64,000 nucleotides of DNA from Pseudeuparius sepicola (Eukaryota; Arthropoda; Insecta; Coleoptera; Anthribidae), in assembly GCA_963920635.1 (NCBI GenBank), contig OY987308.1, positions 7,320,225 through 7,384,224 on the forward strand. Reading direction: 5' to 3'. Shown here piece after piece: positions 16,533-43,720 of this stretch; position 1 is the stretch's first letter, and every line of letters starts with the position of its first letter. The position numbers were made by a program, and so were the translations under genes. The notes beneath the pieces were generated by a model, which did not search any database, had not been told where the DNA came from, and saw nothing but the letters and a program-made list of their open reading frames with translations.

Positions 16533-16884
16533 TGTTAACGAGCCGAGACGGTAAACGGTTTTTTAAAAAACTATTTATTTATTTACACACACGATTTACA
16601 ATTTATAAAATGGACAGAGTGACGAGCAGCAAGACTTACAATCAACTGATTACTTAGTACAGTACTTATCTACTTATCTACTAGTGTTGAACAAAGACCT
16701 GAGCTCTTAGCTGCAGGTGTAGCTTCTGGAAATGGCTAGGCAGAAAATATGCTTGGTTTGATGACAATGCAAACCTTGAAGTTTAGGAAGAAAATAATAG
16801 GCTTTGTTTAAAGTAGACGTTGAATGAGCAGAAATATGATATAAATTAATAGAGATAAGAAACATTGTATGGAGGTGACTTTAA
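16533..16884 (-). repeat. Gypsy element 1 5' LTR, first fragment
   Basis: 352 bp matching 1759-2110 of the 3' LTR. It ends abruptly at GGTGACTTTAA. The missing 38 bp are found, in the same orientation, at 43679-43716. Confidence 0.9.
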
Positions 16885-17744
16885 GAGGCTACGATACTTA
16901 TGAAATCCGCCTCAAGTGCCCGACTCAATTCAGGACAAACGTCGCTCGATTAGATATGCCTATCCTTTTCCTTCCTCTAGTCCCCACGACTCCCCACTCC
17001 AGCCTGCCCCTTCATAGTGCTATGATTGAGGGGCAGCCGGCCGTAGTTACTACACTGAGAAAAATCTGTCACTTTGTAAAAAAACCCTGTTTAATTCAAT
17101 ATGAGATATTATTCCTCAAACTCAAGCAAAAGCTTTTTTGCAACTAACAATAATCAATTCAATGACAATTGATATTGAATTGTAATGAATAATTTAAATG
17201 TAATATTTTATTTCAATAAATAGCATGTTCTGGAATTGATTCTATAATACTTCTTTTCTAAGCACATTCTTTTGTCAGAACAACATAACATAACGTTTCA
17301 CAACTACTGTCACTGAATTTTTGCTGGATTTGTAATAATTGTGGGTACTAATCTCAATTATAATTATTAGTAATATATCATATTATTGCCTAAATAATAA
17401 GCAAATGATGTGTAAAATGCAAATCAAGTTGCTAGTGTAGCAACTTATAATTGACAAAACAGAAATGTTGCAGATGAGATCAATAAATTAATAACATTTA
17501 ATTTTAGTGGATACAAGTTCTAGTAACCCCCAGTTTGTTAATAGCCATTCACTTGCACAGTATTCATTATGACTACGAACGATATAAAATGTATGGTTGA
17601 TTCAAAACCTTTGCGATCATTAATTTGCGATCATTGATTTTGGTAAATTACTCAGTCAAGGTCACAGCTTTTTTTACTAACGTGTTTGTAATAGGATATT
17701 AGTTCAGTCGAGTAAAAAGTACTTGATTCAATCTAACTTGTATT
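16885..17744. other. Left end of the 26.8-kb block, no gene seen
   Basis: Starts with the short terminal repeat. A C-rich patch lies at about 16970-17040, then AT-rich sequence follows. I see no convincing exon or known repeat. Confidence 0.4.
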
Positions 17745-18350
17745 TACGAAGGCGTAGAAGGGCCACTTTTCTTTAAAATATTTTCTTCGCCTTTAATTTG
17801 GTGATATAACACGAAATTAATATTTATTTCATGATATAAAGCGAAATTATATTTAATTTCGAGATAATTAACGCAAAATTAAATATCGCTTCGTGATATA
17901 ACGCGAAATTATATTTAATTACGTGAAATTAACGCAAAATTAAATATCGCTTCGTGATATAACTCGAAATTATATTTTACTCCGAGTTATAAGGCGAAAT
18001 TATATTTAATTTCGTGATAATTAACGCAAAATTAAATATCGCTTCGTGATATAACGCGAAATTATATTTAATTACGTGAAATTAACGCGAAATTAAATAT
18101 TGCTTCTTGATATAACGCGAAATTATATTTTATTTGGAGTTATAACGCGAAATTATATTTAATTTCGAGATAATTAACGGGAAATTAAATATGTATTCGG
18201 AGATACTGCTAACTGGCGTCTATTCTGTTGGTGTTGGCGACGTTCGCGTTTGTTTCGCTCATTAAACTTCAGTATATTACCTATTTGTAGTTGTGTACTA
18301 CTCCGGAAAACTGGAAAATAGGTAAGAAGTGCCAATATTATCAATATACC
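17745..18350 (+). repeat. AT-rich interspersed repeat with internal tandem array, copy 1
   Basis: Starts ACGAAGGCGTAGAAGGGCC and ends ACCATTAGGGC. The middle (about 17800-18190) is an irregular tandem array of units built from GATATAACGCGAAATTATAT and TAATTAACGCAAAATTAAAT. The same repeat occurs inverted at 40548-40945 with a shorter array. No coding capacity. Family unknown to me. Confidence 0.7.
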
Positions 18351-18354
18351 ATTA

Positions 18355-18495
18355 GGGCTTATATTATTTATGTCGAAGCTGCGATCAACGATAAAAGCGG
18401 CAATAACCATAACAACGCAGGCTTGTCAACCAATAGCCTGAAGTTACCTTCGCGTTGCTCTCGTTTATCGTAACTCCGACATAAACGCAGCAATA
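18355..18495. repeat. Short imperfect hairpin
   Basis: TTATGTCGAAGCTGCG near the left and CGACATAAACGCAGC near the right form an imperfect inverted repeat around the core. Possibly a MITE or an extension of the repeat to its left. Confidence 0.4.
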
Positions 18496-19476
18496 ATTGA
18501 TCATTTATAGTAGATGCGTGTTCTGATGAACTTCATTCGTCAGAACTTGTTGGTCGCGTACCTAAATTTTTATGGTATGGCCATATGTGCCCACCACTGT
18601 TGCCAACCTGAGCGTTACCTATGAGGTCGTAGCAACAGTTAAAAAAGTATTGTACTTTAGTGAACATGCCGAACTTTATCTGAAGCGATTATAGAAATTC
18701 TTAGTTTAATTAATTAATTTTGATAATAAATTACAAACCTACGATATAGTTAGGGGAATATCGAATATATTATATTTAATTCACCCACAAATCACAGTTC
18801 ATGTTACGTTTAAAATAAAGCAAAACCACAACAAAACACCTCATTTTAAAAACTTATCTACAGTTATTTTCAGTTCTTATTATAATTGTATTTATATAAA
18901 TGCTTAGGTGAATAAAACTCGCTACCACAGACGGACGCCTACGTCAGACGGTAATCTCTCTCTAACTCATCAATATTCGATTCGTTGGTCAGAGACAGCC
19001 TCTGATAACCTTAACAAGTATACTTACCGCAGATATAGTACACCCTATACGGAGCTGCGGATCTACGATCTACAGGTCAGAGTGGCGTTGGTTTAGTGTT
19101 GAAGGTCGCGAGTTCAAATCTCAAGTCAAAAGTGTTTTTTTTTTATTTCTATGTTTGGAGCGTACCCTGTCTTCTAGGATGTTCCTTTACTTTCAAAAAG
19201 TAACTATTGTAACTTGTACATTTTTGTCATTTTTTCCAGTAACTAGTTACATTTCTAATCTTCTGAAGTAACTGGTTACTGCAGAGGTAACTAGGTACTT
19301 TTTGAAAGTAACTTTACTAGCACTGCCATCTACAACCACCCAACCGTACTAGTCCGTAGATCGACTGGGAGCTGTATTATCGGGTAATCTCCACTATGTG
19401 TCCGTGTCCAGCCTAACCTCTATGTTTATACTGCAAAGCTGCAATAAACAAAATAAGTATAGTTCTTGTTGTGTAC
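18496..19476. other. Non-coding stretch with a possible tRNA-derived SINE piece
   Basis: Mostly unremarkable. At about 19075-19132, GCGAGTTCAAATCTC resembles a Pol III B box and is followed by a long T run, so a tRNA-derived SINE fragment is possible. 19190-19320 has several GTAACT/AGTTAC palindromic words. No gene seen. Confidence 0.3.
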
Positions 19477-19482
19477 CGCGCG

Positions 19483-19707
19483 ACTTAAATTCAGTGAACG
19501 CAGATACTGGTTTTTAAAAAGATTTATTTTTCTCAAAAGGTACAATCTACAATAGATGTGAACCGTGAAATGGCTATGTCGAGACTGAATACACAAGAAC
19601 GGGTGAAAACATAAAAAGTAACATTACTGCTGACAAAGGTGTTACATTACAATTATTACAAGAACTGCTTGTTTAACAAGTGTTTTCTAGTTGGTGTTGA
19701 TATAACT
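19483..19707 (-). repeat. Gypsy element 2 3' LTR
   Basis: 225 bp with one difference from 26674-26898. On the minus strand a purine-rich tract, GGGGATGGAGG, lies just upstream (19708-19720) and serves as polypurine tract. Confidence 0.9.
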
Positions 19708-19735
19708 CCTCCATCCCCAAATCGAGGTATATTTT

Positions 19736-21382
19736 TCAGTGGTTGAAAAATATCCGAGGGTTGGCTTGTGGATTTTCTTCCGCTTGGGCCGGTGCTACGT
19801 CTGTACATCTTCTTTTCTTGACTTGAATTATTAAAATGTACAATAAGGCAATCAGAATAAGTCCATAAATTGGTAATGTCCAAAAACTGGTTGACAGCGG
19901 ATCTAGTGATTCTTCTACCGGTGTTAATCGTTGTTGGTCCATTTGAAGCTTATGTATTTCGTCAAGTCGAATATTTTGTAGCTTTAGTGTTGGTAATTTT
20001 CTGGGGTTTTCGGTTGTTGCAATTTTGATTTCTGGTAATAACAAGGGTTGTCCCTGATTTACGGATTTGTCATTAATAAAGTTATAATGTTTCAGTCGGA
20101 ATTGGCATCCAGTCGGGATATTGATGAGATAATTTCCTTGAAGTGTTATGAAGTCGGTAGTTTCACATAATGTTTGGATTTTCGTTTTATTGGGAAAAAT
20201 TCCAATATAGTGTGAATTGTCAATTTCTTGTACGAATTCTTCGTTAACTCGAACAGGGGTGAGCTGGCAGTTCCTTGGCGTAATCGTCAGTTGAAGTAAT
20301 TGGAATAAACAATCTTCTTTAACTGCTCCTTCGATGAGAGAGTTTTCGGGACAGTAGAATTTGGGATGCAGGTTGGTGCAGGGAAGTGATACATATTGGT
20401 AGAAATTCTCATTCATGATCAGATATGTATTTTTAGGAATTATTGTGGTGGAATTTTGTGTTGGAATAGAAAATAAGTGATAGTATGAAAACGATTCTGG
20501 CATAGTGATTGGAAAGTGAACAACGAAAATTATTTTCGATCCTGAATAGTAAGATTCTACATTTAGAACATCGTAATATCGATGAATGTCTGTTTTTAAG
20601 GGAAAAATTAACTGTTCAGGTGAATAAAGAGTTTCTAAAATTTTTATAATATGTTGCAAATCATCAATTTTTAGTATGCTACTATGAACTTTACCTAGTC
20701 GGGAAAATGTCACAGCATTTTCTATGTCGTTTAATAACTGTAAAACCACGTTTAGTAGTAAATTAATTTGGTCTAAAATATCTCTGATTTTTGTATAAAT
20801 TATGAATTCTGATTCAAACTTATTAACAAAATCTTCTATTACGATATTTAAGCGTTTTGTTATAAGTTCTTGATCATGTTTAATTAATGAAACTGTTTTA
20901 TTAAAATTATTGATAATTCTTGTCGTCAATGAGATTTCTTTGTTTAACTTTTTGACAACAATTTTTTGATTATCCTGTAGATTCTTAATAGCTTGATCGT
21001 AATAGTAGGCATCGTCTGCATCTAAATTTCCGGTAATGGTTTTTATTATGGAACCTAATCCGTTTATAAGACCACGTTTTGTTCTACCAGCTGGATTGAG
21101 TGTGTCGAACTTTGTTTCTGCTGTATGTAACTGATACTTTAAAGCTTTATCAAAATTAATTAGGTCAACGGCGAAAGCATTTTTAAAGAAATCTTTCGCA
21201 ACAAGGGAAATATCACTGTACTGATTTTTAATGAGTTCAATTTCATTTTTTATGGGGTTAAGATCAATGTAATGAATAAAGGTATGGGTTCGGGAGTAAA
21301 CTTTGGCAGTTCCAAGTTTATAAGGAAGGATCCCTGGATTTTTGTCGAGTTTAGTTATGGTTATGTCTGTCTGTACCTGCAC
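19736..21382 (-). CDS. env: Env: baculovirus-F-like envelope fusion glycoprotein of Gypsy 2
   Basis: 548 open codons with no breaks. A furin-type R-T-K-R at residues 100-103 precedes GLINGLGS, the fusion-peptide start of F-like proteins. A helical region follows, then Cys-containing folds, and a hydrophobic anchor about residues 500-523 (LPIYGLILIALLYILII) followed by a basic cytoplasmic tail. No signal peptide is seen at the first Met. In errantiviruses env is made from a spliced mRNA whose leader may supply the start. The first 32 bases overlap the end of pol in another frame. The family mediates membrane fusion; whether this copy is expressed is unknown. Confidence 0.85.
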   Translation of the reverse strand: MQVQTDITITKLDKNPGILPYKLGTAKVYSRTHTFIHYIDLNPIKNEIELIKNQYSDISLVAKDFFKNAFAVDLINFDKALKYQLHTAETKFDTLNPAGRTKRGLINGLGSIIKTITGNLDADDAYYYDQAIKNLQDNQKIVVKKLNKEISLTTRIINNFNKTVSLIKHDQELITKRLNIVIEDFVNKFESEFIIYTKIRDILDQINLLLNVVLQLLNDIENAVTFSRLGKVHSSILKIDDLQHIIKILETLYSPEQLIFPLKTDIHRYYDVLNVESYYSGSKIIFVVHFPITMPESFSYYHLFSIPTQNSTTIIPKNTYLIMNENFYQYVSLPCTNLHPKFYCPENSLIEGAVKEDCLFQLLQLTITPRNCQLTPVRVNEEFVQEIDNSHYIGIFPNKTKIQTLCETTDFITLQGNYLINIPTGCQFRLKHYNFINDKSVNQGQPLLLPEIKIATTENPRKLPTLKLQNIRLDEIHKLQMDQQRLTPVEESLDPLSTSFWTLPIYGLILIALLYILIIQVKKRRCTDVAPAQAEENPQANPRIFFNH

Positions 21383-24300
21383 TGTCAGTAGTACTACTAG
21401 GTGGAACCTGCAACAGTTTTTTATGCTTTACTTTTGGTCGTCTAATATTTTGTTTGTGAAGAGTCTTTTTCGCGGTTTTTACCTGAATACTTTTATTTCG
21501 AACAACTTTACCTTTTTGGTACTTTTTGCATAATTTATTACGGTTGTTAGAAACTACTTTTCGATAGACGTCATCGTCTGGTTGATAAGTTAAAGGATCT
21601 TCTCGATTTTTATTATGATACTCTATAGTTTGTCCTTTGTGTTCTGTCAATTGTTCGTTTAATTTTTTATAAATTTGTTTTGTAGCTTCGCGGTGTTCTT
21701 CGATATAGTTATTCATTAGTTGCTGGTTAATGTCGATGTCAAAAGGGTCTTTCGTATTTAAATGTCCATTTATAACGTCGATAGGTTTTTGTTTGGTTGT
21801 AGAATGTATTGAATTATTGTATCCGAGTATTGCATAAGGCATTTGATTTAGAATGTCGATTTTTCCTTTGTTTTTATGAATTATTACTCTTAAATGTTCA
21901 AGAAGTGTCGAATGAAAACGTTCTATGGCTCCGTTTGATTGAGGGCTATTTATAGTGATATAGTGAGAGTTAATTTTGTGAGTTTTGAAAAATTCTTGTA
22001 TTATAGAATTTTTAAATTCTGTACCGTTATCCATAACAACTAAAGAGGGTAAGCCGTGATGGGTCATGAAAATAACGAAAGCTTTTACAATTTCTATTGC
22101 GGATAACCCGTTTAAGGGGTATGCTTGACTGTACTTAGAGAATGTATCTATCATCGTTAAGAATTTTTGTCCGTGTGCTTGAAAGGTATCTACGTGAACA
22201 ATTTCGAATGGTTTCGAAGGTGTGGGAGTAAGCATTAATTTTTGTTTAGGTGGATTTCGATCGTACTTATTTTGTTGGCATATTTCGCAGAAATTTATGT
22301 AGTTAGCAACGTCGTTTTTTATTCCGGGCCAGTAATATTTTCTTTTTATTCGGGTTTCAGTTTCTAGGATTCCGCGGTGGTTCGTCTTGCTTTCGTGATA
22401 ATTTTGAATAATCTGAGTTTGCATATTTGCATCTGTTACATCTTCTAGGAAAGTATTACATTTCATTAACTTGTAAGCTGCATTTTTAAATGTTTTCCTG
22501 AGAATCTCGCATATACGTGGAGCATAATCTTCTTTATCAAAATATATAGCATAAGTGAATTTAGGATCTAAATAATTTTTAAACAAGTTAATTATGTCGG
22601 TTTCTACATTATTTATGGAAATTTGGACATTTAAACGTTTTTTATTAGGAAAAGTGCTTTCGCGTTTAGGCGTCGCTGGGGAATGTAAAACAAATTTTAT
22701 TTTAATTTGGTGGTCAAAAGAATTTAAACACCTGTCAGTCGAGGGTAATTCTTGTATTGGATTTTCATGGCTAGTATGAACCGTGTTATCGTCGATTTCC
22801 TCGGCTGATATAGTTTCTTCTGATGAAGGATCCTGATTTGGGTCTTGATTAATTTGTGCATTATTTGTCGATGGTTCGTTTTGTACATGGGTTGTGCTTG
22901 TAGATGGTTCGTTCACGTCATTTAAGTCTGGTTGCTCGTCAATGTTTCCTGTAGTCGAAAAATTGTCAGTTTCTTTTTCTTTTGATTTTTCGAGAGATTT
23001 GTTAAATTCTTCTATGTAATTAAAAATTTCTTTGGTGTGTATTTCTACACGTGAAAGTGCGTCTGCGTTTGTGTTTGTCTTTCCTTTTTTGTATTGTATT
23101 TCATAGTCAAATTCTTCAAGTTTTAGTCGCCATCTTACTAGTCGTGAGTTGGGTTCTTTTAGTGACATAAGCCACACGAGAGGTCTATGATCTGTTAAAA
23201 TTTTGAATTTGCGTCCAAATAAATATGGTCTGAAATATTTTGTTGCAAATACGATTGCTAAAAGCTCTTTTTCGATGGTGCTGTAATTTTGTTCCGATTC
23301 ATTTAGAGTCCGAGAGGCGTATGCAATAGGTTTGTCATTTCCGATAGGTCCTTGTGATAAGATAGCACCGATCGCGACGTTACTTGCATCAGTGGTCAAG
23401 TTAAACTGTTTCGTAAAGTCGGGGTATTGTAAAAGTGGTTCATTCATTAAGAGATTTTTACAGTCTTCAAAGCATTTGACATATTGGGGAGTTAATTCGA
23501 TTTTTGCATCCTTTTTTAAACATAAAGTGAAGGGTTTAGTGATACGAGCGAAGTCTTTAATAAATTTTCTGTAGTAACCTAATAAACCTAAAAATCCTTT
23601 TATCTCTTTTGTTGTTTTTGGTAAGGGATATTTTTTTATAGCAATAATTTTGTCTGGGTTTGGTCGTACTCCTTCTGGGGTAACAACATGTCCGAGATAC
23701 GCGACTTCTTTTTGTAAAAATTCCGATTTATCGAGCTGAATTTTGAAATTTGTTTCTCTTAGGCGTTGAAATACTTTTGTTAAATTTATTAAGTGTTCTT
23801 GAAGCGAAGTGGAAAAGATTATGATATCGTCGAGATATACAAGGCATATCTCGTTTTGTAACCCTCTGAGGATATTGTCTATTACCCTCTGAAAGGTTGC
23901 AGGGGCGTTTTTTAAGCCCATAGGCATTCGAACGTATTCGTAATGCCCGTTCTCTACGTTAAAAGCGGTTTTAGGGATGTCTGCAGGGTTCATCTCAATT
24001 TGATGAAATCCACTTGCCAAGTCTAGTGTCGTGAAGTAGTTACAACGTCCAAGTTTGTCTAGTACGTCTGTAATGTTAGGGAGAGGGTAGCGGTCATCGA
24101 TAGTTTTTTCGTTTAATTTGCGATAGTCGACGACTATTCGCCACTTTTTCTGTCCAGATGCGTCGGCCTTTTTGGGGACGATCCATATGGGGGATGACCA
24201 GGGTGAATTACTTGGTCTAATTATACCTTGGTCTAACATCGAGGATATTTGTCTCTGTACTTCGGGTTTATGTATATACGGGTACCTATATGATTTGGTG

Positions 24301-24602
24301 TATACGGGAATTTCGTCTTTGGTCCTTATGCTGTGTTTCATTTGGTTCGTAAAAGTAAGAGGTAATTCGGGTCTATGAAAAATGTCTGAATATTTTCTGC
24401 AAATTTTTAAAATTTGTTTACGTTCTTCTTCATTCATGTGAGAGGTTCTAATTAAATTTTCTATGTCTGAATTTTCTAAATAAGTGTCATTGGGAATAAT
24501 TTCTGCTGAGTAAATAAAATGTTCGTCTAAATCAAATTCTGATGTAGGTACAGGGTCGGTCAAAGTAATTTGGATAACGTCATCTGAATTATTAACTAGT
24601 TA
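21351..24602 (-). CDS. pol: Gypsy 2 pol: reverse transcriptase, RNase H, integrase
   Basis: An open frame of about 1080 codons follows an in-frame TAA at 24600-24602. Counting from TTG at 24563: reverse transcriptase about residues 85-350 with DYRKLN, LDLASGFHQIE, and YLDD at 243-246; RNase H about 388-505 with TTDAS, TDHRP and NADALSR; a low-complexity Asn/Pro/Ser/Thr linker about 510-620; integrase with H723, H729, C759, C762 and the D792, D845, E881 triad. All catalytic residues are present. The stop means this part is made only by readthrough or not at all. The C-terminus overlaps env. Confidence 0.9.
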
Positions 24603-25150
24603 AGCCCACGCTAAATTTTCGTTTGCTGTAGAGAGAGAGCTTTTTAAAATTGCGCCTTGAAATTCCTGATATTTTAATAATACAGGTCCGTATTCTTCTT
24701 TAACGGGTAATTTAACAGGGGTTATACTATGTGGTTCTAACTGTAAATGGTAAAAATGTGATTGATTGGTTTCGTAATATCGAAGTGGTAAAATAGCATT
24801 TTCAGTTATAAGCTGATTTCGATTGTCTCTAAAATCTAAGAGTGCTTGTATTAATTTTATATTGGTAAGGTTTTGTGAAAATTGAAAAGATAAAATTTCA
24901 TTGGTAAATTTGATTTAAATTCTTGAAAACTTGGTATATTTGCGGAGTAATTTTGAGAATAACTTTGGAAAACTGAAGATACAATAAATGGATCATGCTG
25001 TATAAAATTTTTAAAATTTTGAAAAGCAATATTCGGGTTAATAAAAGATTTGGTGGAACCAGTGTCGATTAAAAGTTTGATTGGGGGGTTAGAGATACAA
25101 ATATAGGGTAATATTTTTTTGTCAGGGAAATAGTGCAATTCTATTACGTT
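24603..25150 (-). pseudogene. Gypsy 2 protease region of pol, frame-broken
   Basis: Pol begins in the -1 frame relative to gag, overlapping its end, as expected for Gypsy -1 frameshifting. Open sequence 24857-25138 holds the retropepsin site LIDTGSTKSF. It stops near 24857, while the sequence leading to reverse transcriptase continues in another frame. The usual DGLIG motif of the protease C-terminal half is missing at the switch, so a small deletion is the likely cause. Confidence 0.75.
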
Positions 25151-26448
25151 TCTAGTTCGTAATTTTGAGCGTGTTGAAAATTTGCGTCTTGCTCGGTGTG
25201 CGGTTCATAGAACTGTTCGTTATTTTCGGTTTCAATTATTGTGTCATTATAGGGTTCATACTGGTTTAGATCAGATTGATTGTCATAGTCAAGTTCATCG
25301 GTATGTTCGGTATTAAATAGTTCTTCAGATGCGAAATTGGGTTTTTGTCCGTAATTTTGGAAGTAAGAATTTGGTCGAATATTAGAATTTGGTTTTGGAA
25401 TAGTTTGATTAATTCCAGACATTGGTGTAGGTCTGTTAGTGGGTGGTTTATTGGTAGGTTTAAATTGGTTTTGGGGTCTTCCAAATACTTGTGAGTTTGT
25501 GGGATATCTCTGTGAAGGAGGATTTGGATTTCTTTGGATATTGGATATAGGTCCGCGAGGAAATTGAGAATTAAATTGTCGGGGTTGTGTCCAGTTCGAT
25601 CTTTGCATTATTTGGGGTTGATTTTGGGGTAAAGAGTAGCGATGTTGTGGTTGTGGTGGAAAATATTGGGCAGGAGTAGGTTTTCTTAAAATTTGAGTTT
25701 GGGGTGTATTAGATTTTTGATAATATTTTATATTTTCTTCTTCTGTAATAAATTGTAAAGCGGATGCTAGAGTAGTAGGTCTCATAGCACGAATTATAGG
25801 TCCCAGGGGTTCGCTTAAACCTGCTAGAAAAGTTTTTAATGCTTGTTTTGTGAAAAAATCGCGTTTAGACGGTCGACTTGCCTCATCACATTTTAGATCT
25901 ATATGGTTACAAATGGTATTTAATAAATGCATAACTTTTTCGTGAAATTGGTAAGGAGATTCGTTAGGTTTCTGTCTTAAGTTTACAAGGTCTTGATTTA
26001 GACAATTTTCGTCTCTTTGATCGCCAAAATTCAAAATGAGAGTATTTTTTATATCGTCCCAAGTTTTACAACCATTAATAGCGACAACTTCCTCTGCTTT
26101 ACCCTCTAGTTTGTTTAAAATTCCATTTAAAAGTAAAGTATTTTGAAAATTTTGAAGGTTCACTGCGTCAAAATAGTACACTAAAATTGATTCTGCTGAG
26201 GAAATAAATCGATGTAACTTATTTGGGTTTCCATCGAACAATGGAATAACACTAATATTTTTAATATCTAAGGCTGGTGCCATTTTAACACTACTTTCAA
26301 AAACTGAATTAATTTGTGATTGTTTTAATTTTATTTGATCAGATTCGATCGATAAATTTTCAAGTAATTCAGAAACTAAGCCTAACTCAGTGCCGGAGTA
26401 ATCGTTTTCACAAAAGGAATCGTTACGGGACAAAGAGGAGTCTGACAT
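25144..26448 (-). CDS. gag: Gypsy 2 Gag
   Basis: 434 codons, uninterrupted, from the Met at 26448. The N-terminal half resembles errantivirus capsid: VIPLFDGNPNKLHRFI, LEGKAEEVV, WDDIKNTLILNFGDQRD and KPNESPYQFHEKVM. The C-terminal half is rich in Pro, Gln and Asn with no zinc knuckle, as in many errantiviruses. It forms the intracellular particle and binds genomic RNA. The end (YELET, stop at 25144) overlaps the -1 pol frame. Confidence 0.88.
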   Translation of the reverse strand: MSDSSLSRNDSFCENDYSGTELGLVSELLENLSIESDQIKLKQSQINSVFESSVKMAPALDIKNISVIPLFDGNPNKLHRFISSAESILVYYFDAVNLQNFQNTLLLNGILNKLEGKAEEVVAINGCKTWDDIKNTLILNFGDQRDENCLNQDLVNLRQKPNESPYQFHEKVMHLLNTICNHIDLKCDEASRPSKRDFFTKQALKTFLAGLSEPLGPIIRAMRPTTLASALQFITEEENIKYYQKSNTPQTQILRKPTPAQYFPPQPQHRYSLPQNQPQIMQRSNWTQPRQFNSQFPRGPISNIQRNPNPPSQRYPTNSQVFGRPQNQFKPTNKPPTNRPTPMSGINQTIPKPNSNIRPNSYFQNYGQKPNFASEELFNTEHTDELDYDNQSDLNQYEPYNDTIIETENNEQFYEPHTEQDANFQHAQNYELET

Positions 26449-26673
26449 GAAAGAGAAAAACTAACTCACAGTATCCACGTCCTTTCTGTTTCCATCTAGT
26501 GCCTGAAGTTCTTCTGGTAGGTGTTGGTGCTCACGGATGTCCACGTTGGAGTCCGAAAAAGTCCAAGCCCGAAAACAACTTCGTACACGATAGGTTACTT
26601 TTTTTTTCCGTAAAGCGTTGAAACGCACCGGTTATCGATATTGATTCCGACGAAAAATCCGTACGACTGCGCC
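26449..26673 (-). other. Gypsy 2 leader and primer-binding site
   Basis: Between the 5' LTR and gag. At 26664-26674 the minus strand reads TGGCGCAGTCG, complementary to the 3' end of a tRNA-Ser, the known primer of many errantiviruses. It overlaps the last base of the LTR. Confidence 0.85.
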
Positions 26674-26898: not shown

Positions 26899-26904
26899 CG
26901 CGCG

Positions 26905-29030: not shown

Positions 29031-29109
29031 TAACATCAATACATTTGCGTAAGCAGTGAATCAAGGTCATACGGTTGGCAACACTGGTACTGGTGCCCAG
29101 TGCTCACGC

Positions 29110-30838: not shown

Positions 30839-30877
<39 letters not shown>

Positions 30878-33065: not shown

Positions 33066-33770
33066 ATGTATTCCATGTATAGAGTTTTAATAGTTATTAT
33101 GTTAAGTTACCTACTGTTTATTAGAATGTTATTTTTAGAATTTTTATTGCGTTTTTTAACACTGTGTAGCTCCTGTAACTGTAGTTATAAGTAAATATAT
33201 ATATTTTTATGGATTATAGCAGTTTTATTTTTTAAATATATACCTACTGCCAGGTTTATATACGATGTTAGAAGCATACGCATTGATATAAATAACATAC
33301 AACATTTGTTTACGCTTATAACTAAGACTCGTGTATAAACCAGGCATAAAATAATTAAACGACTTTCTAGAAGCTTTTTACGTTGCCGCTTGTATTTATA
33401 AATAATGGATAAAAGTATTCATAATGTTCCATCTCGTAACGTCAAGCACGGCAACTGCGGGCTGTATGACACTAGGTAGGTACTCAAATTATTTGACAAA
33501 AATTATCTTGAGATTTCTTAAAAAAGTATATAGGTAGGTAATGTGTTCTAACATTTTCATAGGTTTTTTATGAACTAAAAAAAAATATAAAACAAAACAT
33601 GTTTTAAATGGCTGTTTATTCAATAGAAACTAAACACCTAAATCAAATTACAACATGGAATTACCTATTACTTACAGGATAACTTGAGATATACTTACCT
33701 TTTAGCTACTATAGATAGATGATAAAGTGCAGTGGAAATAATTGTTATACCTTTCATATTAGCTGGCACG
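33066..33770. other. Region downstream of the HECT gene
   Basis: AT-rich; probably holds the 3' UTR of the HECT gene, though no AATAAA is obvious within 100 bp of the stop. No other feature seen. Confidence 0.35.
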
Positions 33771-33774
33771 CAAA

Positions 33775-34195
33775 TACTTAGCGCTGCAGGCTGAAGTGGC
33801 TCCCGATGGCATTTAAACATTACCTACATGTATTTGGCACCTGGGCCGTTTCGTGAATGTTTCCATGTGATCCGTATCGTTCTTTTTATGTTCTATGCGC
33901 AAAATAGCGGTCCTCGAAACGAGTAGTAAAAGAAGGAACATCTTAGAAGACGCGGATACATCCCAAACGTGAAAATAAAAATTAAAAAAATGTTGACGTG
34001 AGAATCGATCGGGGACTTTCTCTTAGAAACCTGTGAGGCGGTACCCCTGAGCCATCGACGCTATGCCAAATATCCTCGCGGGACACTACTTTACTCTACT
34101 GGCCAATAGGAAATGGCCCAGGTGCCAAATGCATGTACGGAATGTTTAAATGCCTCCCGGTGCTCAGTATCTCAGCCTCCATCTACGCCACTGAC
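33775..34195 (-). repeat. tRNA-derived SINE-like core inside a short inverted repeat
   Basis: Flanks 33790-33850 and 34105-34190 are inverted (GGCATTTAAACATT and AATGTTTAAATGCC, ATTTGGCACCTGGGCC and its inverse). The core read on the minus strand has TGGCTCAGGGGTACC like a Pol III A box and GATCGATTCTC like a B box, spaced as in a tRNA. Could be a SINE or a tRNA-like MITE; no intact tRNA. Confidence 0.5.
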
Positions 34196-34601
34196 ATGTA
34201 ATTATAATCTCCTCGGCAAATTTCAATAAAATCAGTTGATACAATATCCAGAATAAATTTCAAAAATATTATTTCACCTGACCAGCACCTAAATATATAG
34301 TCTGTATAGTGGAAACGCATAGAGTTGTTGCAGCCATAGTTTTTGACGCAAATCAAAAGCCGACGACACACTGGAGAAATTTGTTTCATGAATGGGACAT
34401 CGGCCACATACAGTGACAGAACGTTGAATATATTTTTGTTAAATTGGGCATATTTGAAAACCATGTATATGCCAAATTGCTACAAGTTTCATATTTCATG
34501 AAACTTTTTTCTCCAGTATGTCGTCGGGCTTAAATCAACGAAGATCTGTATCTGCGGTAACAATGTGATTCACTCTGAAAAGCCCTGTATATTGTCTTCA
34601 T

Positions 34602-37462
34602 CTACAATTTTGATAACACACCATATATTTTGGTCCTGAGAAATATATAAAGCTGTACTGCGTCATAAGGATCATTATTATCTGACTTGTAATTATTTTC
34701 CGACATAATTTTCTGGCAGAATTCATCTATTTCTTCATCGCACGAATTTTCCAGAAATGTACATTCTTCTTCCAAGCAATTAATTATATTTTGGCCAAGA
34801 CGAACAATACAGTTTTCAGTACCATACAAATTAGGTGCCTCGAACATTAAAATTGGTCTTCCTATGGGCGATCTACAATTTCGGGTGCTTCGTATTTTAT
34901 GTGTGTTCCATTCCAATGACACTTCATCGAGCTCATCCTAAAATAAGGATACCTAAATTGGACGGACGGTGCACAGAATGTTTTCAAAAATAATATCACA
35001 AAAATAAAATTATTTAGGATCATATTAATCATGAATATTGTATACAGTGCGAATTGCAGTGTGAATAAGACATGTAAAGTTTTTTTGCTTTACACTTTTT
35101 TGATATGATAAATAAACGGGTAAAAAATGGTGTCTGACAAATAGTCATTTTCTTGCGGTAAGTTGTTTAGTGTGCTAGAAAGTAATTCCGTTGAGCATTT
35201 CCTACCTCATTTAATAACAATACTGATGACTGATGATGATAGACTACTCGAATCGAACGCATGCTGAAGTAGTTGCGATATTTCGGGTAGCTCTTCTACA
35301 TCTACCTCCGATTTCTCAAGGAACAATCAGGAAAATTGAAAAAATATATTAGAGGACTATACAGGGCACGAAGAAAAATTTTAAAAAGGAAACATTTTTT
35401 CCGTACATGAAGACACCAAATTAAAGGTTTTGCTTTCATTTCTAGAATGTCCAAGTAAGTAGTTTTAGACAAATTGCCCTAGAAAATAATGTTAGCCAGA
35501 ACTTAGTCATGAGAACATTAGATAGGTACATCTACATCAAGAGAAAATGCAATTCTAGAAAGTTATACCAATGCAAGAATTAACTGATGAGGTCCCTAAC
35601 CGAAGAATACAATTCTGAAAAAAAGTGATGCTAAGATTATACACTATAACTTGATTTTAACAAAAATATTTTTTTCGCACGAATCCGCCTTTACCCTCAA
35701 CGGACAAGTAAACCACCCAAATTGTCGTTATTGGTCTACGGAAAATCCATATCGGATGAGAGAGATGCATACCTACACGAAGACCCCAGAAAGTTAACGT
35801 TTGGGCTGGTATAAGAAACGCCATTTTTCTTCAAAGAAAACGTTAATGGAAGAAATTATCTTCACTTAATTAATTAGAAGTTATGTAATTAAGCGTGGTT
35901 GCCATTTACTTATAAGACTACATAGCGTTATTTAAAATAAAATTTTGTTTTCCTCCTATCTTAACCCTAAAAAATAAAAGATGCAAGAAGAGTAAAACCG
36001 CTTATTATTTATGTAATTCAAATACTTAATGAGAAACAGCTAGAAGCATTTCTGTAGGTACCAAAATATTGCTAAGCCAGCTGTGCAGCAATGCTGGCTG
36101 ACTTTTTGTTAGGCACCATACTTTACCTCATTATTTATCTTATCAAAGAAGTGTAAAGCAAAATATAAGTCAAATAGTTACTAAGATACGACTCTTCGAA
36201 GATTTTTCCAAAAAGTGAAAATTTTTTCTGAGTTGAATACCGGCAAAATGACGTGTTTCACATTGAGAGTCATCAGAAAGGCCATCAGCATTGAGGGGAA
36301 GGGGGAGGAACCTCTTTATCCTATTAGCTGACTTGGGTTCCCATAAATGGGCAATATTTACCTAGAGATATACTATTATCTTCAAAGAGCTGCTTCTTAG
36401 TAAGTAGCAAATTTAATACGCTTTAAAATATGTGCGTAAAAATTGTTCTTTTTTTCGAGTTAGCACAGGGTTCTCAATGTTGTAAATCTGAATTTATACT
36501 ACCAATACAGGTCAAAAAACACTAGCAAAGAAACACGTAAAAACACTATTTATTAAATGTAAGTTCATGCCTTTTTAAATGTAAAGTTTGACTGGGCTAG
36601 TACGTTTCGGGTTGAATATATTTCTTACCTGAATGATTTTTAGGAAACAAAACTGAATTAACGATTTGTCCAAAAATGTTCCATTGAATAGTCCTCCATC
36701 TCTCAAGATTTCAAACAAATTGATCCAATATTGGGCGTTATGTTTTCGTAAAATTGACCACCAAGATTCAATTCTTTGGTTAGCTGTGCTTTTCCCGTAA
36801 ATAAATGCTGGCTTGCCATTTCGTTCAGTATCAAAAAGTTGCTTCAAGGATGTTTGCATCTTTTCTACAGTTCCGTTTTCTGTGCCCATATCACTTCGAA
36901 TTGTTTCTGGACATCCTCCGAACTTCTTCATTGCTTCCAGATAATATCCTGCTATTACCTTTGGATTATTGGATGTAGATCCAACACGCAACCATACAAT
37001 ATATCTTGAAAAACCGTTAATTCCTCCATTAATACATATTCCATATGGTTTTAGTTTGTCATATGAGTCCATATGCCAAACAGAATTAGGACCCTTGTTA
37101 CTATACTGTCTTCTTTGTAACCTCTTTCGTTTTCTTGTGTCAACTCCATGAGGATCCAGTAATTTTAATATTTCTCGTACTATGTTTTGTGTGACTGTAA
37201 AACCGTGCTGGATACACTTTAAATGCATCCATCTATAGCCATGCATCTGTCCAGACTTGTTAAGTTGTTCATAGATAAAGTTTGCTACACTTTCAAGACC
37301 CGAAAAATGGTTTCTTCTAAATAGATTTAGTTTGCGCAGAATACGCTTTAATGTTCTGGGGCTTATGGTGATATTATGAACCGATTTAATTATAGCAATA
37401 ATTTCTTTTTGGTGCAAACCAAGAGAAAAGTAATTAGTTACAAGTACTTCTGTTGAATCCAT
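34602..37462 (-). CDS. DDE integrase-like transposase, two exons, intact
   Basis: Exon 1 is 37462-36629 (278 codons, donor GTAAG at 36628). Exon 2 is 34937-34602 (acceptor TTATTTTAG, 111 codons plus stop). The phases match, giving 389 residues without a break. Residues 12-42 look like a helix-turn-helix. Residues about 125-245 are a retroviral-integrase-fold core: D132 (WHMDSYD), D191 (RSDMGTENG), E232 (NQRIESWW), a D-58-D-40-E spacing. Exon 2 begins DELDEVSLEWNTHKIR and includes RNCRSPIGRP, typical of the C-terminus of this integrase-core family in fish, cnidarians and fungi. TTTTTTGTAG just before the Met could be an acceptor of a 5' UTR intron. It faces the HECT gene tail to tail. Best candidate enzyme for mobilising the 26.8-kb block; superfamily not settled. 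Confidence 0.82.
35240..35870 (+). pseudogene. mariner-like transposase relic in the integrase intron
   Basis: Plus-strand fragments recall mariner-type transposases of insects: LPPISQGTIRKIEK near 35300 (second helix-turn-helix), then ESAFTLNGQVNHPNCRYWS near 35680, NPYRMREMHT and FGLV near 35760-35810. Several stops and shifts; no inverted repeats found. Antisense to the integrase gene and confined to its intron. Confidence 0.6.
35871..36574. other. Remainder of the integrase gene intron
   Basis: AT-rich and without recognised features. Confidence 0.35.
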
Positions 37463-38103
37463 TACCTACAAAAAATATTATAATTTTAACATGTACCTAA
37501 GTACATGATATTAACTAAAAATGTTGTTGTTTTTTGCAAAACTCGATTACAATTGAGATAAGGGTTTTTAAAGGAATAGTCTTAACATTGTTTTTTTTTA
37601 CTAGAACTTTCGAAGGAATGGACCAATTTCCTTTAAATTCGGCACAGGTTACTAAAACCTGCTCTTGCATGGGTGTCGGACCACTTGCGACCGGCCCACT
37701 TGCGCTCCGGGCACAGAAAATCTACTACGATTTTCTGTGCTCAAAAAAATTTACTACAATAGATTTTCTGTGCTCCGGGTTAAGATCAACCCATTTGCGC
37801 CCGTGTTATTTTTACCCATTTTCTGCGGGAGCATTTGCGCCCTTCATCATAAATGTAGGTACCTACCTAATATGCTGTTTTTTTTAGATGCACATATATA
37901 TAATAAATGCAAGAAACAGTACAAAAAAAGCTATTTATAGGTATAATATAAATATACAATTTTGTGGTAAAACAACATGAGAACGATAATAATATGTATA
38001 CCTAAACAATATTTTATTTTTTTAACATTTAAAGAATGTTGTCGATAAATATAATAGATACCAGTGAAGTGCTTCACTTTTTAATATATTAATAAGTTAA
38101 AAG

Positions 38104-38190
38104 CCGCGGTGGCCGAGTGCGTACAGTCGTCGCACCAAACTCGGCATCTGACTAGAAGGGCCGGGTTCGAATCCTGGCATCGCGTATAGC
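38104..38190 (+). tRNA. tRNA-like sequence, SINE or tRNA pseudogene
   Basis: GGTGGCCGAGTGC fits a Ser/Leu-type A box and CCGGGTTCGAATCCTGG is a convincing T arm with B box. The ends can pair weakly as an acceptor stem, and a T-run terminator follows. The middle is irregular and no anticodon arm is clear, so a tRNA-derived SINE or pseudogene is more likely than a working tRNA. It lies inside the MULE relic. Confidence 0.5.
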
Positions 38191-38510
38191 GTTTTTTTTC
38201 TTTTCAGAAAAACACCGTATGCGGCTTAGAGCAGTTGATAAATGTGGTTCCATAGTATTGTTTATTAATAATAGTACTTGTGAGATTCACTGATTATCAT
38301 ACAGTGCAGTAAGGGTTACTACGGTTTTCTGGGGTTTTCCGTAGTACTTGAACGAATGTTGCCCTACTTACAACGTAAGAGAAAGACGGCCCCAGATGCA
38401 AAGGCAATGAATGCTGAATAATAGTAATTGCTCCCCTCCCTCGCACAAGCATTAATTTGCTTCTGGGGTACCTTAGGGTATTGTGAGGGTGAGAATCATT
38501 ATTATTATTA

Positions 38511-38760
38511 TTATAGTTCAAAAAGATTTGGTTTTTGTTTGGTTAACTTATTAAGTCTGTTATGCCATCCTCCCACGCAGTTAGTGGTCCTATCTTCATC
38601 ACCCACACTAAACAAGTCTACCACGACATTTTTCAGCTTTGTCTTTTGTGCAGGTCCAAGTTTTACTATCACCTTTAACAATTTTAATTCGGTATCGGTA
38701 GCCATTCAATGCACAAGGCTTACCTTTCGTAGTCTCAATAATTTTTAGCTTTTCTTCCAT
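38511..38760 (-). pseudogene. MULE transposase remnant: FLYWCH zinc finger and C-terminal scrap
   Basis: From the Met at 38760 the minus strand reads 50 codons including TTKGKPCALNGYRYRI and TWTCTKDKAEKCRGRL, the FLYWCH DNA-binding finger common at the N-terminus of animal MULE transposases. A stop follows at about 38608. In another frame 38511-38600 encodes CVGGWHNRLNKLTKQKPNLF, like the C-terminal part of such transposases. The catalytic middle is deleted. Confidence 0.65.
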
Positions 38761-38935
38761 TCTGAATCAAACTTACAGAGATATCTACTCTTTGCAAAAG
38801 TAAAAGATTTCTTGCTAATCCCCTCTAATGAGGGGCGCAAATGCTCCGGCCGAAATCAGTTAAAGATAACAGGAGTGCAAGTGGGTCGAATTTTAACCAG
38901 AGCGCAAGTGGACCGGGCGCAAGTGGGTCTATTCC

Positions 38936-39337
38936 CTCGCATGATCCTCTAAAAGCTCTCTGATCACCTGGTCTCAATTTTTTTTACTTTTTTTACGCAA
39001 ATAATCAGGAATAAATTAATCTGCTGCTGCATGACCGTACTAAATTTAATTAATTCGGTGCAAAATACCATAGTCCTGGGGCATACGCGTAAAAAAATTG
39101 TAATAAATCTTACCGTTGAAACCTGCTCGAAGGGTCTAAATTTTTTGACCTGGTAAGTGACCTAAAGTAATAAAATATTCAAGAAATACAAGGCACAACT
39201 GATTTTTTTTTTCGTGAAACTTAGGGGGGTGCATTTTATGGCACATGTTTATACAGGAAAAAGTCTTATTTTGGTCTCAAAAATACGTCCTTAAAATATG
39301 TGCACGAAGTTTTAAATCGCACTGTACATATAATACA
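38936..39337. other. Intergenic
   Basis: No recognised feature. Confidence 0.35.
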
Positions 39338-40538
39338 TACAAGGTGTAACATAAGTAGGTTAAAATATTGAAAGGGCGTATTCCTGAGACAATTTTAAGA
39401 ACAAGAAACTTATATAAACTTGTGTCCGGAAATGCTTCGTTTCGGAGATACAGGGTGTTAAAATTGAATTTTTATTTCGTTTTTTCTAAATATCCTTTGC
39501 AAAAAATAAGTTCTTCGCACGAAATTGGGACCCGGAGGTATTTTGAGGTGGGAAATCATAATTTCGTATTAATTTTTATGTAGCACCTAGAGGGCGCTGC
39601 GTACGTACGTTGTCATTATTTACTTAAGATTGTCCCAGCTTCTTCGACAGTAGTAAACTTTTGTCAATTCTCATGAAAAAACCTCATTTTCACACCATTT
39701 TCAATTAAAAAAGGTACACTTACTCGACAACACTGGAAGTGATCGTTTTCGAGATATTTACAATTTTCTGTATCGATGCACGTTACTTAGCTCCTTGGGC
39801 GCTAAGTGAAGTTGCTGAGAACATTACAAAAACTAAGTGTGTGGTAGATCTTGTCAAAATAAACATTTTTTTTCTATAAATGTTTATCGAAAAATGATTC
39901 GTTTTCGAGATACTTATGACAAAAACCAACCATGTTTTGGAAATTTTCAACACCTGTATGTCGAAAACGAATCATTTTTCGATAAACAATTATAGAAAAA
40001 AAATGTTTATTTTGACGAGATCTACCACACACTTAGTTTTTGTAATGTTCTCAGCAACTTCACTTAGCGCCCAAGGAGCTAAGTAACGTGCATCGATACA
40101 GAAAATTGTAAATATCTCGAAAACGATCACTTCCAGTGTTGTCGAGTAAGTGTACCTTTTTTAATTGAAAATGGTGTGAAAATGAGGTTTTTTCATGAAA
40201 ATTGACAAAAGTTTACTACTGTCAAAGAAGCTGGGACAATCTTAAATAATGACAAGGTACGTACGCAGCGCCCTCTAGGTGCTACATAAAAATTAATACG
40301 AAATTATGATTTCCCACCTCAAAATACCCCCGGATACCAAATTTTGTGCAAAGGTTAGGTTATTTAAAAAAAAAAATTTAAGGTTATTTAAAAAAAACGA
40401 AAAAAAAATTCAATTTTAAGACCCCGTTTCTCCGAAATGAAGCATTTTCGGACACAAGTTTATATAAGTTTTTTTTCCTTAAAATTGTGTCAGGAATACG
40501 TCGTTTCAATATTTTAACGTACTATGTTACACCCTGTA
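39338..40538. mobile_element. Near-perfect palindromic element, about 0.6-kb arms
   Basis: TACAAGGTGTAACATA at left and TATGTTACACCCTGTA at right. Matches continue almost without interruption to a centre near 39945 (GAAAAATGATTCG and CGAATCATTTTTC). No coding capacity. The outer TA suggests a TA-targeting element. A transcript would form a very long hairpin. Confidence 0.8.
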
Positions 40539-40547
40539 TAGGCCCTA

Positions 40548-40945
40548 ATGGTATATTGATAATAATGGCACTTCTTACCTATTTTCCAGTCTTCCGGAGT
40601 AGTTCACAACTACAAATAGGTAATATACTGAAGTTTAATTAGCGAAACAAACGAGAACGTCGCCAACGCCAACAGAACAGACGCCAGTTAGCAGTATCTC
40701 CGAATACATATTTAATTTCCTGTTAATTATCACGAAATTAAATATAAGTTCGCCTTATATCTCGGAGTAAAATATAATTTCGCGTTATATCACGAAGCTT
40801 TATTTAATTTTGCGTTAATTATCTCGAAATTAAATATAATTTCGCTTTATATCATGAAATAAATATTAATTTCGTGTTATATCACCAAATTAAAGGCGAA
40901 GAAAATATTTTAAAGAAAAGTGGCCCTTCTACGCCTTCGTATGTA
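40548..40945 (-). repeat. AT-rich interspersed repeat, copy 2 (inverted)
   Basis: Inverse of 17745-18350: starts GCCCTAATGGTATATTGATA and ends GGCCCTTCTACGCCTTCGT. The internal array is shorter. It lies about 3 kb from the right end of the block, mirroring copy 1 about 0.9 kb from the left end. Confidence 0.7.
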
Positions 40946-42212
40946 TTGGACATGAATTCTAATATGAAAATTCTAAGAATTTCTTGAATACCATAAAAAT
41001 TGAAAAACATGATTTACTGATTATATTGATGAATAGGTACCTATAAAAGTTGCAATTAAGTTGTTTTGTTCATCCAATGAATTATAATGTTTTTTCAGTT
41101 GCTTCTGGGGTACTCTTAGATAGTTTGGAGTAGTCTGAGGGTGAGAATTATCATTATTTAAATAAAATAAATTTAATTGTTTAAATAAAACATGAGACAT
41201 TTTAAAACCGAGGTTATGCTTTCATTGTAGTATGCCAATTTTAGTATCGAAGTGACAATACGTCTTCTTAACGGAAATTTAAACTATTTTAAACTTATTG
41301 GTTCATCTGCAATTAAGTCAAAAGTATAGATTAGATTAGAAAAGTGACTATATACACGAACTCACTAAAATCACAAGTCTTTTTTTCCTGTGTAGATAAT
41401 ATGAAATAATAAGTCAGGTGCCGGCCGCCGCCGACGGGTCACACGAGTCTCGCCGATGCCGACGAAGAAGCGCGAATATTTAAAAAACGGCGGTGGCCTG
41501 TTTGCTTTATTGCAAAAATGATATTTTTGGGAGTTATAGAGGGCGTTCACTTTTCGTTGGCAACACACTGCATAGCTTTTTGGCGTCGAAGCAATTTTAC
41601 TATTATTTTTCATATCAGCAAAGGTGCATAGGTACTATGAAGAGTTCGTGTATAAAAAACTTCTGTAATTGCTCAATTATAAAATCTAAATTAACGATTC
41701 GATTACCGAATTCTTCTTGAACCACGTTAGGGTCAGTTGAACATCTATCAATGTTTGATTGGATAATTATTGTTCTGCATAATAGTGTTGTTACGACCAA
41801 AAAAGTGCGTTTAAATTCTACTTCTATAAAATGTTTTATATACCTAGTATTCCATATTAATATTTGTGTAATAATAAATAAATCTAACTGAAAACTTTCT
41901 ACACTGTAACAGCAGCGTCCAGAGATATACTTTCTAGACTTTGGTAAGAGTTCACTTTAGAGGGATTAGAGTGAATAATAGACAATAGGTATAATATCAC
42001 AACTATGATTTGTTTATTTAAAAACAGTAAGCGGTTTCGTTAATCTATAAAATTACATCATCAAGGACTACAATATAAGATTTAAAAAAGTAAATAAATA
42101 AAGGATAATCACTTATAGTCCAAGAGCTTCCAGGAAATTTGAAGGAGATACTTGAAAAAAGATTATAATTATGTAAATGTTTTTAATTGTTTCAACTTTG
42201 ACTTGTGGCTGA
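40946..42212. other. Region with one small unexplained ORF
   Basis: The minus strand 41615-41800 encodes 61 residues including EEFGNRIVNLDFIIEQLQKF, which reads like real protein and may be an exon fragment, but I cannot name it. A GC-rich patch lies at 41415-41470. Nothing else recognised. Confidence 0.3.
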
Positions 42213-42638
42213 ATGTATATATTTCAAATATATAATGAGGATGTAGGTAAATTTATAGAGTTGCGAAACCGGTCTCCGTTTTCAAATAAAGTAATAGTTT
42301 TGAGATGTTTTTCCCAGAAAGTTTGTTTCTCAAACCCTATGCACCTGCACTTATACCTAAATCCGAATAATAAGTGTGCAAAATGCAAAATATGTGTTAG
42401 TACCCTAGTACCCCTCTCTCAAATTCTGGGAACCATATTAGGTACGGGAATAAAAGCACACAAGCCCACAAATTACTCCTATTGGTTTCACTGTGACTGT
42501 TGCGACATCATTATCAAACATTATAGGTATTCTTGCCCTGACTGCCGTTCAGTTTCAGAACCTTCTGACAAATCTGAATTATCGAACATCCTAGAAAATG
42601 TATTAAAATGTCATAAATTCGACAGACTGGAACAATAA
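42213..42638 (+). CDS. Cysteine-rich 141-aa ORF of unknown function
   Basis: Open from the Met at 42213 to 42638. C-x2-C pairs (CAKCKIC, CDCC, CPDC) with nearby His (YWFHC, KHYRYSC) could bind two zinc ions in a ribbon or knuckle-like fold. No signal peptide or clear membrane span. AATAAA overlaps the stop, as in a compact 3' end. It may be a whole small gene or a last exon. It is the third non-retroelement coding candidate in the 26.8-kb block. Function unknown. Confidence 0.45.
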   Translation: MYIFQIYNEDVGKFIELRNRSPFSNKVIVLRCFSQKVCFSNPMHLHLYLNPNNKCAKCKICVSTLVPLSQILGTILGTGIKAHKPTNYSYWFHCDCCDIIIKHYRYSCPDCRSVSEPSDKSELSNILENVLKCHKFDRLEQ

Positions 42639-43674
42639 AATGTACCCTTTATTTTTATTTTGCCCGATTTTCAACTTAAATGACTTTCGAACAATCTTCT
42701 AACGAAGAAGTTTCTAAAACTGACTGGATGTCAGAATTATTATCGTTCCCTCTGGAAAGTATATAAATTAGCTTTTATCATGCAGCGATTTGACACAATA
42801 ATCGTATTACATAGGATATTATTCGTTTTCAAAAAATGCTTCACATGACCCATTTATTTGACAAAAATATTACTTGTACCTATCACATTTTTAAAGTAAA
42901 AATCAAGCGCACAATTTGGTCTAGAATTTAAATTTACTCTTTTTGCACGACCAGGCCATTTTCTGCCCTAGGGATTAAACCATTTTACACAAAAGCAAAA
43001 AGTACTTTGTGAATAATAATTATTTATTTATTACTCCTGGAGGAATAATAATAATGAGTATTATTATATGCCAGTCGACATACATAATGTAATATTCCAA
43101 CATTCAAAACAAGCGAAACACAAATAAGGGAGACTGAGAGTAATAAAATGAAAAATGAAACATCTGATACCGATTGAAAGTTCCCCTGACGTTGTTCCCG
43201 AGCCCGGTGAGGTAGGCCGAAGTAGGGGGAGTAGGGGAACCACGAGTTCCAGCGAACGCCCGCCCGCCCGTCTATCTCCGTACGTCTAATTCCTGCTCGG
43301 ATGGCCAATTCACGGATCATTTTATTGCCGGGCAATGGGTTCGTAGTTTTCAAATCATAGCCAAACGAACAAACGTATCGACTTGAAAGTAGTCTTAAAA
43401 TAATGTTATCGAATGCCTCAATCGTCGTTGTGTCTTTCGAATTATTTTTGAGCGGCGGAAATACTCGAAATTCTTAACCGAATATAGTCGAATTTCGGGT
43501 ATGTTTGGCATTTTTTTTAACAGTGTCGCATTAGTCCTGCACAGTTCGAGATACACAAAGACGATTCTTCATAGTTTTATCTAAGCCACAAAAAAAATCA
43601 AGTGAAAATATTAAGAAATGCAAGTAGGAGATGTAAACTACGAAACCCTTGAAAATGGGGGGTATCGTAGCGCC
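42639..43674. other. Right end of the 26.8-kb block
   Basis: Mostly AT-rich, with a GC-rich patch at 43180-43330 that I cannot assign. It ends with GTATCGTAGCGCC, the inverse of the left terminus. Confidence 0.45.
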
Positions 43675-43720
43675 TTAAGAGAGAACAAAGGGTGCCTTGA
43701 AGAGGGCTAATATAACATGT
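43675..43720 (-). repeat. Gypsy element 1 5' LTR, second fragment, and TGTA duplication
   Basis: TTAA (43675-43678) is the duplicated target of the block. 43679-43716 are the missing 38 bp of the 5' LTR, and 43717-43720 (TGTA) is the right target copy of element 1. Confidence 0.85.

Follow-up and report, generated by a model that had tools for sequence, protein, structure and literature searches.

A probable nest of transposons in a long terminal repeat of the beetle Pseudeuparius sepicola: a TTAA element interrupted by a candidate IS3EU-type element with a HECT-like gene

We analysed a 64,000-nucleotide stretch of the genome of the beetle Pseudeuparius sepicola (GenBank assembly GCA_963920635.1, contig OY987308.1, positions 7,320,225 to 7,384,224, forward strand), hereafter the window, in which a block of 26.8 kb interrupts one long terminal repeat (LTR) of a retrotransposon that we call element 1. 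An earlier note, made from the letters of the window, had proposed that this block entered the LTR at a TTAA as a single unit, with decayed relics of other transposons travelling inside it. The block consists of a 3.59-kb element flanked by TTAA, itself interrupted by a 23.2-kb element that has its own terminal inverted repeats (TIRs), a transposase gene and a gene resembling HECT E3 ubiquitin ligases.

The window reads ..GGTGACTTTAA|GAGGCTACGATAC at the left junction of the block and ..GTATCGTAGCGCC|TTAAGAGAGAACAAAGG at the right one, with copies of TTAA at 16881..16884 and 43675..43678, after which the LTR resumes. The uninterrupted LTR of element 1 reads GACTTTAAGAGAGAACAAAGG, and the split one reads GACTTTAA, then the block, then TTAAGAGAGAACAAAGG. 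The former, the 3' LTR and partner of the split one (1759..2150, minus strand; limits TGTTAACG..ATATAACA drawn by eye), continues through the corresponding point at ~2100-2150 as ..GGTGACTTTAAGAGAGAACAAAGG.. without a break. Because the TTAA site at ~2107-2110 is uninterrupted there, the partner LTR represents the empty site, with TTAA as the duplicated sequence. The junctions that the earlier note placed in the 5' LTR of element 1 are thus real in the window sequence, and the empty site by which it proposed to judge them exists. Its view that the insertion is recent also holds, the split LTR and its partner being unlike at 4 of 347 aligned positions. TGTA lies outside both outer LTR ends of element 1 (1755-1758 and 43718-43721). 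A pair of 372-bp direct repeats (13924-14295 and 15462-15833; window 13924-15833) encloses 1172 bp that recur beside the split LTR (43684-44854) and partly at ~50.5 kb (50209-51319; 98%); this recurrent stretch has ~33 bp in common with the end of the element-1 LTR.

The outer part of the block is a copy of a dispersed family. Its left part, 860 bp beginning GAGGCTACGATAC (16885..17744, plus strand), and its right part, ending GTATCGTAGCGCC (40948..43674, plus strand), both have other copies in the window's own 769-Mb genome. The left 860 bp are found full length at 98-100% identity in at least 40 places, the window included, with one further partial match, when 40 of 949 first-look candidates were scored. 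The right-end query is found over 43200-~43678 in at least 39 places at 98-99% (the window itself at 100%), with one partial match at 94% and one to LTR sequence only, when 40 of 1214 were scored; both copy numbers are lower bounds. Of the 20 loci fetched from these places, 15 were picked for ends ~3.6 kb apart, one for ends at a distance of ~9 kb, and four solely by their left end. Every one of the 20 shares these ends and is bounded on each side by an exact TTAA, beyond which the flanks differ, so that other loci with both ends, which the earlier note had named as a check, are plentiful. Moreover, the short inverted repeats that it had described at the block ends, GAGGCTACGATAC and GGCGCTACGATAC, agree in 11 of 13 bases and recur at every fetched copy. 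The duplication, for which it had allowed 4 to 7 bp, is exactly the four bases TTAA in 20 of 20 copies; a 7-bp duplication was ruled out, since TTAA alone is common to them all and the bases beyond differ.

Most of the fetched copies (18 of 20) measure 3287-3597 bp, and the window copy, counted without its inner insert, measures 3587 bp, in agreement with them. The exceptions, L054 (8896 bp) and L058 (5534 bp), owe their extra length to other insertions, each with a frame that by eye is Tc1/mariner-like (339 aa in L054, 374 aa in L058). These longer copies were considered as autonomous TTAA elements and set aside, their frames being taken by eye for nested Tc1/mariner transposases. The window copy differs from the family majority at 8 of 3587 sites, and the 18 aligned sequences, 17 fetched and the window's own, lie 0.17-0.50% from that majority. 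No frame longer than 165 aa occurs in the 19 outer sequences examined, and the frames of at least 100 aa in the window's TTAA element have no Pfam match above the cut-off. The outer TTAA family is, by its sequences, young and abundant, and it looks non-autonomous, without a recognisable transposase. Two small frames, 42213-42638 (141 aa, several CxxC-like pairs) and 43024-43473 (149 aa), keep the same open length in 10 and 16, respectively, of the 19 sequences, which may only reflect youth; neither has a Pfam match above the cut-off.

None of the 20 fetched outer copies contains the inner 23.2 kb. In 19 of them the sequence at window 17744 joins that at 40942 directly, with a 6-bp overlap, and in L054 a different 5.5-kb stretch occupies the insertion point. 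L054 and L057 also resemble window 27.8-28.8 kb over short stretches (70-84% similarity), which in L057 lie beyond the TTAA element. The overlap is TGTATT, single in the uninterrupted outer copies and double in the window (17739..17744 and 40942..40947). Between these copies lies the inner element, 23,197 bp with ends TACGAAGGCG..CGCCTTCGTA (17745..40941). Its ends read TACGAAGGCGTAGAAGGGCC, and its long inverted repeats contain ~30-bp tandem subrepeats; the left TIR spans 17745..18363 (plus strand) and the right one 40537..40941 (minus strand). The outermost 116 bp of the two arms are identical, and a stretch of 171 bp further in has 8 differing sites.

A 62-bp inner terminus, which begins TA, occurs ten times in the genome (nine times at 100%, once at 98%), and these ten termini pair into five elements: W, the window copy (C10; 23197 bp), A (C10; 19902 bp), B (C7; 15711 bp), C (C10; 15161 bp) and D (C11; 12066 bp). 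The termini TACGAAGG..CCTTCGTA were read in W and B, and a 6-bp duplication was seen in both of the copies whose two flanks were read, TGTATT at W and GGAGCC at B. On the flanks that were compared, the left one of A, both of B and the left one of C, no match to the outer TTAA element was found, in a comparison that listed matches of at least 120 bp and more than 85%. Three of the five elements lie on C10, which makes up 3.65% of the genome (binomial P 0.0005), possibly through local hopping or a chromosome effect. The ~30-bp tandem repeats stand in both TIRs (window 17796-18192 and 40709-40894) and their length varies from copy to copy: in A, B and C, 387-479 bp separate the terminus from the point that matches 18193. 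They are possible transposase-binding arrays. A palindromic element with CAGGGTGT.. ends and arms ~90% alike (39337..40539) adjoins the right TIR and is also present in copy B.

The inner element encodes a putative transposase on the minus strand. Its exon 1 has 279 codons (36629..37465), with the putative catalytic residues D133, D192 and E233, and its exon 2 encodes 111 aa (34602..34937) that by eye look like the C-terminal portion of full-length relatives, P0009 for example. In W the frames of both exons are open, with a GTAAG donor and a TTTTAG acceptor, and exon 1 is open in A as well. The protein matches PF24764, and a Pfam scan gave no match to a zinc-binding (HHCC) domain. There are 1004 homologues at E of 1e-3 or below, the best named matches being those of the beetles Phaedon, Brassicogethes, Photinus and Pyrocoelia, and the three acidic residues, taken as the catalytic triad by motif, are invariant across 15 sequences. 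According to excerpts of a published survey, the ends of IS3EU families are TA..TA, their duplications usually measure 6 bp, and the first catalytic D stands 100-300 residues into the protein (PMC10045372). With TA..TA ends, 6-bp duplications and a DDE enzyme whose first D falls within that range, the inner element fits IS3EU/GingerRoot.

The second gene of the inner element, present in all five copies, resembles HECT E3 ubiquitin ligases (31250..33065, plus strand; in W two overlapping frames, 31250-31615 and 31584-33065). Of the 17 frames of at least 100 aa in the block outside the nested LTR element, it and the transposase are the only ones to pass the curated Pfam cut-off, the HECT domain (PF00632) scoring 35.3 bits against a cut-off of 23.9. 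Profile matches to solved ligases include UBE3C, HUWE1 and E6AP, and a Thr-Cys pair (T458-C459) is invariant in 15 sequences. An AlphaFold2 model of the protein (mean pLDDT 78.9, pTM 0.65) was searched with Foldseek; of 225 PDB matches the 50 that were listed are all HECT-type ligases, with TM-scores of 0.26-0.48 over the query, the best being the HUWE1 HECT domain (E 8.4e-13, TM 0.47/0.58). The predicted protein combines a HECT fold with a catalytic Cys in the C-lobe, and it may work as a ubiquitin ligase.

Support for linkage between HECT and integrase genes elsewhere in the genome is weak. Outside the family, with adjacent matches merged by eye, there are 41 places of integrase-like and 17 of HECT-like sequence, and most have no partner; the nearest pairs lie 10.3 kb and 25.8 kb apart on C9 and are convergent, as in the inner element. 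A uniform distribution predicts 0.02 pairs at distances up to 12 kb and 0.05 at distances up to 30 kb, and jittering positions on C9, which is rich in both, gives P 0.14 (12 kb) and 0.04 (30 kb). Short contigs of other species with HECT matches (lengths 21953 and 302370) have no integrase match among the 120 + 120 matches listed. One chromosome-sized Photinus contig has both genes, which says little, and seven of the nine species named among the HECT matches also stand among the integrase matches listed, a weak indication given how widespread the integrase is. Among the papers and listings searched, none paired HECT with IS3EU, and nothing relevant on HECT in transposons came up.

W and B differ by ~0.4% (41 mismatches in a 9.7-kb alignment, 27923-37599), relic stretches included. 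Over 4988 sites common to W, A, B and C, private changes number 4, 5, 12 and 13, respectively, and no substitution groups the four copies in pairs. Small gaps give a mixed signal: one 1-bp gap is common to W and C, another to B and C, and A and B have the shortest state of a tetranucleotide run. A stretch of the transposase intron (35200..36000), which contains a mariner-like relic, is ~100% identical in all five copies and has elsewhere in the genome only three partial matches of ~150 bp at 68-69%. The divergence of at least this relic from its relatives therefore predates the spread of the five copies. Other old transposon relics lie at 38199..38942, with relatives, among the matches listed, at 76-77% for 38199-38515 and 85-94% for 38593-38942. 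The earlier note had named mariner and MULE relics in the block. Relic-like sequence is indeed present, with the mariner label resting on a reading by eye of two frames, the one at 35600-35794 and that of L058; the MULE label was not confirmed, and the relic frames have no Pfam match above the curated cut-off. It had further proposed that the relics travelled inside the block. They did travel inside a mobile element, namely the inner IS3EU-type one and not the whole block.

The largest passenger in W is a nested, env-bearing Gypsy-type LTR retrotransposon of 7.4 kb (19475..26899, minus strand), whose LTRs (19475-19708 and 26666-26899) differ at 3 of 234 positions and which encodes reverse transcriptase, RNase H, integrase and a Baculo_F envelope-like frame. 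Its site is clean and empty in A and B and holds a solo LTR in C, and copy D has no full LTR element, judged by the spacing of its left-end and HECT matches. On the simplest reading, the ancestor of W and C probably already had the LTR element and the lineage moved afterwards, either as the full 23.2 kb or with the C form reduced to a solo LTR beforehand; gene conversion between inner copies on the same chromosome could also have produced the shared site.

We place a probability of roughly 0.9 on a sequential nest, made up of the element-1 LTR, the 3.59-kb TTAA element, and the 23.2-kb IS3EU-type element with its passengers. Element 1 would have inserted first; a 3,587-bp TTAA-specific DNA transposon would then have entered a TTAA in its 5' LTR; and a 23.2-kb IS3EU/GingerRoot-type transposon would have entered that 3.6-kb element, duplicating TGTATT. 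The two-exon DDE transposase would most likely mobilise any DNA lying between TACGAAGG..CCTTCGTA ends, and the passengers so moved would include the older relics, the HECT gene and, in the W/C lineage, the LTR retrotransposon. We infer that this transposase does the moving and that the IS3EU-type family is probably still active. By contrast, the single 26.8-kb move advanced by the earlier note fails as the leading explanation: the outer copies lack the inner 23.2 kb, and the inner element has its own TIRs and 6-bp duplication and exists in five copies, with other flanks.

Several points weigh against the sequential nest or its details. That the outer element arrived before the inner one is the most parsimonious order, not a proven one; the divergence counts (4 of 4988 private changes in the inner window copy, 8 of 3587 from the family majority in its outer host) are consistent with a later inner insertion, yet they are small raw counts, and the two measures are not strictly alike. 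Support from the duplications comes from W and B, the two copies read on either side. For the transposase, sequence searches matched no PDB chain; its exon 1 frame in B is broken by a 1-bp length difference near the start (exon 2 being open), exon 1 in C has one stop near the match edge (known from the match, not from the letters), and D has no exon-1 match. Finally, the assignment to IS3EU/GingerRoot is by published criteria for the ends, the duplications and the first catalytic D.

The nesting could also have happened elsewhere, with the IS3EU element entering a TTAA element at another locus and the outer ends then carrying both into the LTR. The intact outer ends and the partner LTR, empty of the whole block, would agree with such a composite move, and cut-and-paste would leave one composite copy, as observed. 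However, we regard it as very unlikely, because no second composite was found, the inner terminus occurring just ten times in the genome, and because the flanks of A, B and C that were compared do not match the outer element. Furthermore, the outer sequences contain no long frame, although a transposase could act from elsewhere, and the inner copy shows no more private divergence than the outer one. The least probable account, in our view extremely improbable, is that the junctions are false joins of the assembly. The region is made of repeats and was judged without reads, which leaves some room for it; nevertheless, TTAA on both outer sides and TGTATT on both inner sides are target duplications, not expected from a false join, the inner termini are identical to those of four other paired elements, and the outer length agrees with that of other copies.

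Another doubt concerns the class of the inner element. Elements of the Polinton/Maverick type carry genes for a protein-primed polymerase B, a packaging ATPase, a protease and a capsid. A degraded one would fit the size, the long TIRs, the integrase-like DDE enzyme and the 6-bp duplications of the inner element, such duplications being ascribed to Polintons in excerpts of the survey cited above (PMC10045372). Yet no polymerase B, packaging ATPase, protease or capsid match was found in the 17 frames of at least 100 aa outside the LTR element (shorter decayed pieces mostly went unscanned), and the TA..TA ends match those given there for IS3EU (PMC10045372), which makes this reading very unlikely.

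Elsewhere in the window, 141-bp tandem repeats form two opposite arrays of about nine copies each at 60922-63438, with arms up to 98% complementary, and the G+C content of ~53% at 61-63 kb stands out against ~28-42% in the rest.

The sequential nest would explain how old relics come to lie in a young insertion: a low-copy transposon lineage may persist, gather nested elements that decay within it, and still move. As for the proposal of the earlier note, the 26.8 kb need not have moved as one unit. The nest also points to an animal DNA transposon whose accessory gene resembles ubiquitin ligases, a candidate factor in counter-silencing or in the control of transposition. By analogy with fungal IS3EU elements, we tentatively raise the possibility, which we hold to be doubtful as yet, of an animal IS3EU lineage with its own HECT-type ligase as a standing accessory gene, perhaps degrading a host silencing factor or tuning the transposase, that would also move unrelated DNA amounting to ~10 kb or more, a whole env-bearing retroelement among it.

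Among known systems, the outer element resembles piggyBac/Kolobok-type TTAA transposons in its exact TTAA duplication and its 13-bp imperfect inverted ends. Kolobok elements combine TTAA duplication with a Kolobok transposase; the outer element agrees in the duplication, and no transposase was found in the outer copies read. With TTAA in 20 of 20 copies it agrees with piggyBac as well, but its ends begin GAG/GGC and not CC, the termini of piggyBac being given as CC..GG in the excerpted survey (PMC10045372). The inner element shares with IS3EU/GingerRoot its TA..TA termini and 6-bp duplications, and a DDE integrase-like transposase without HHCC whose first catalytic D stands at ~133; it differs in that its 12-23 kb hold a HECT-domain gene together with relics and an LTR element. 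Fungal IS3EU elements, as described in one report, have TET/JBP and alpha-kinase genes, and therefore offer a precedent for regulatory cargo in the superfamily (PMC12730594). They too hold a second, regulatory-type enzyme, with transposase and alpha-kinase opposite in orientation, as transposase and HECT are here (PMC12730594), whereas the cargo in our case is a HECT ligase-like protein and the genome that of an insect. Teratorn-type composites, so far as extracts of their description go, are alike in being a DNA transposon with a large payload that includes virus-type genes, and unlike in that no genome is fused here, the env-bearing LTR element being an ordinary insertion, nested and bounded by LTRs of its own (PMC10175614).

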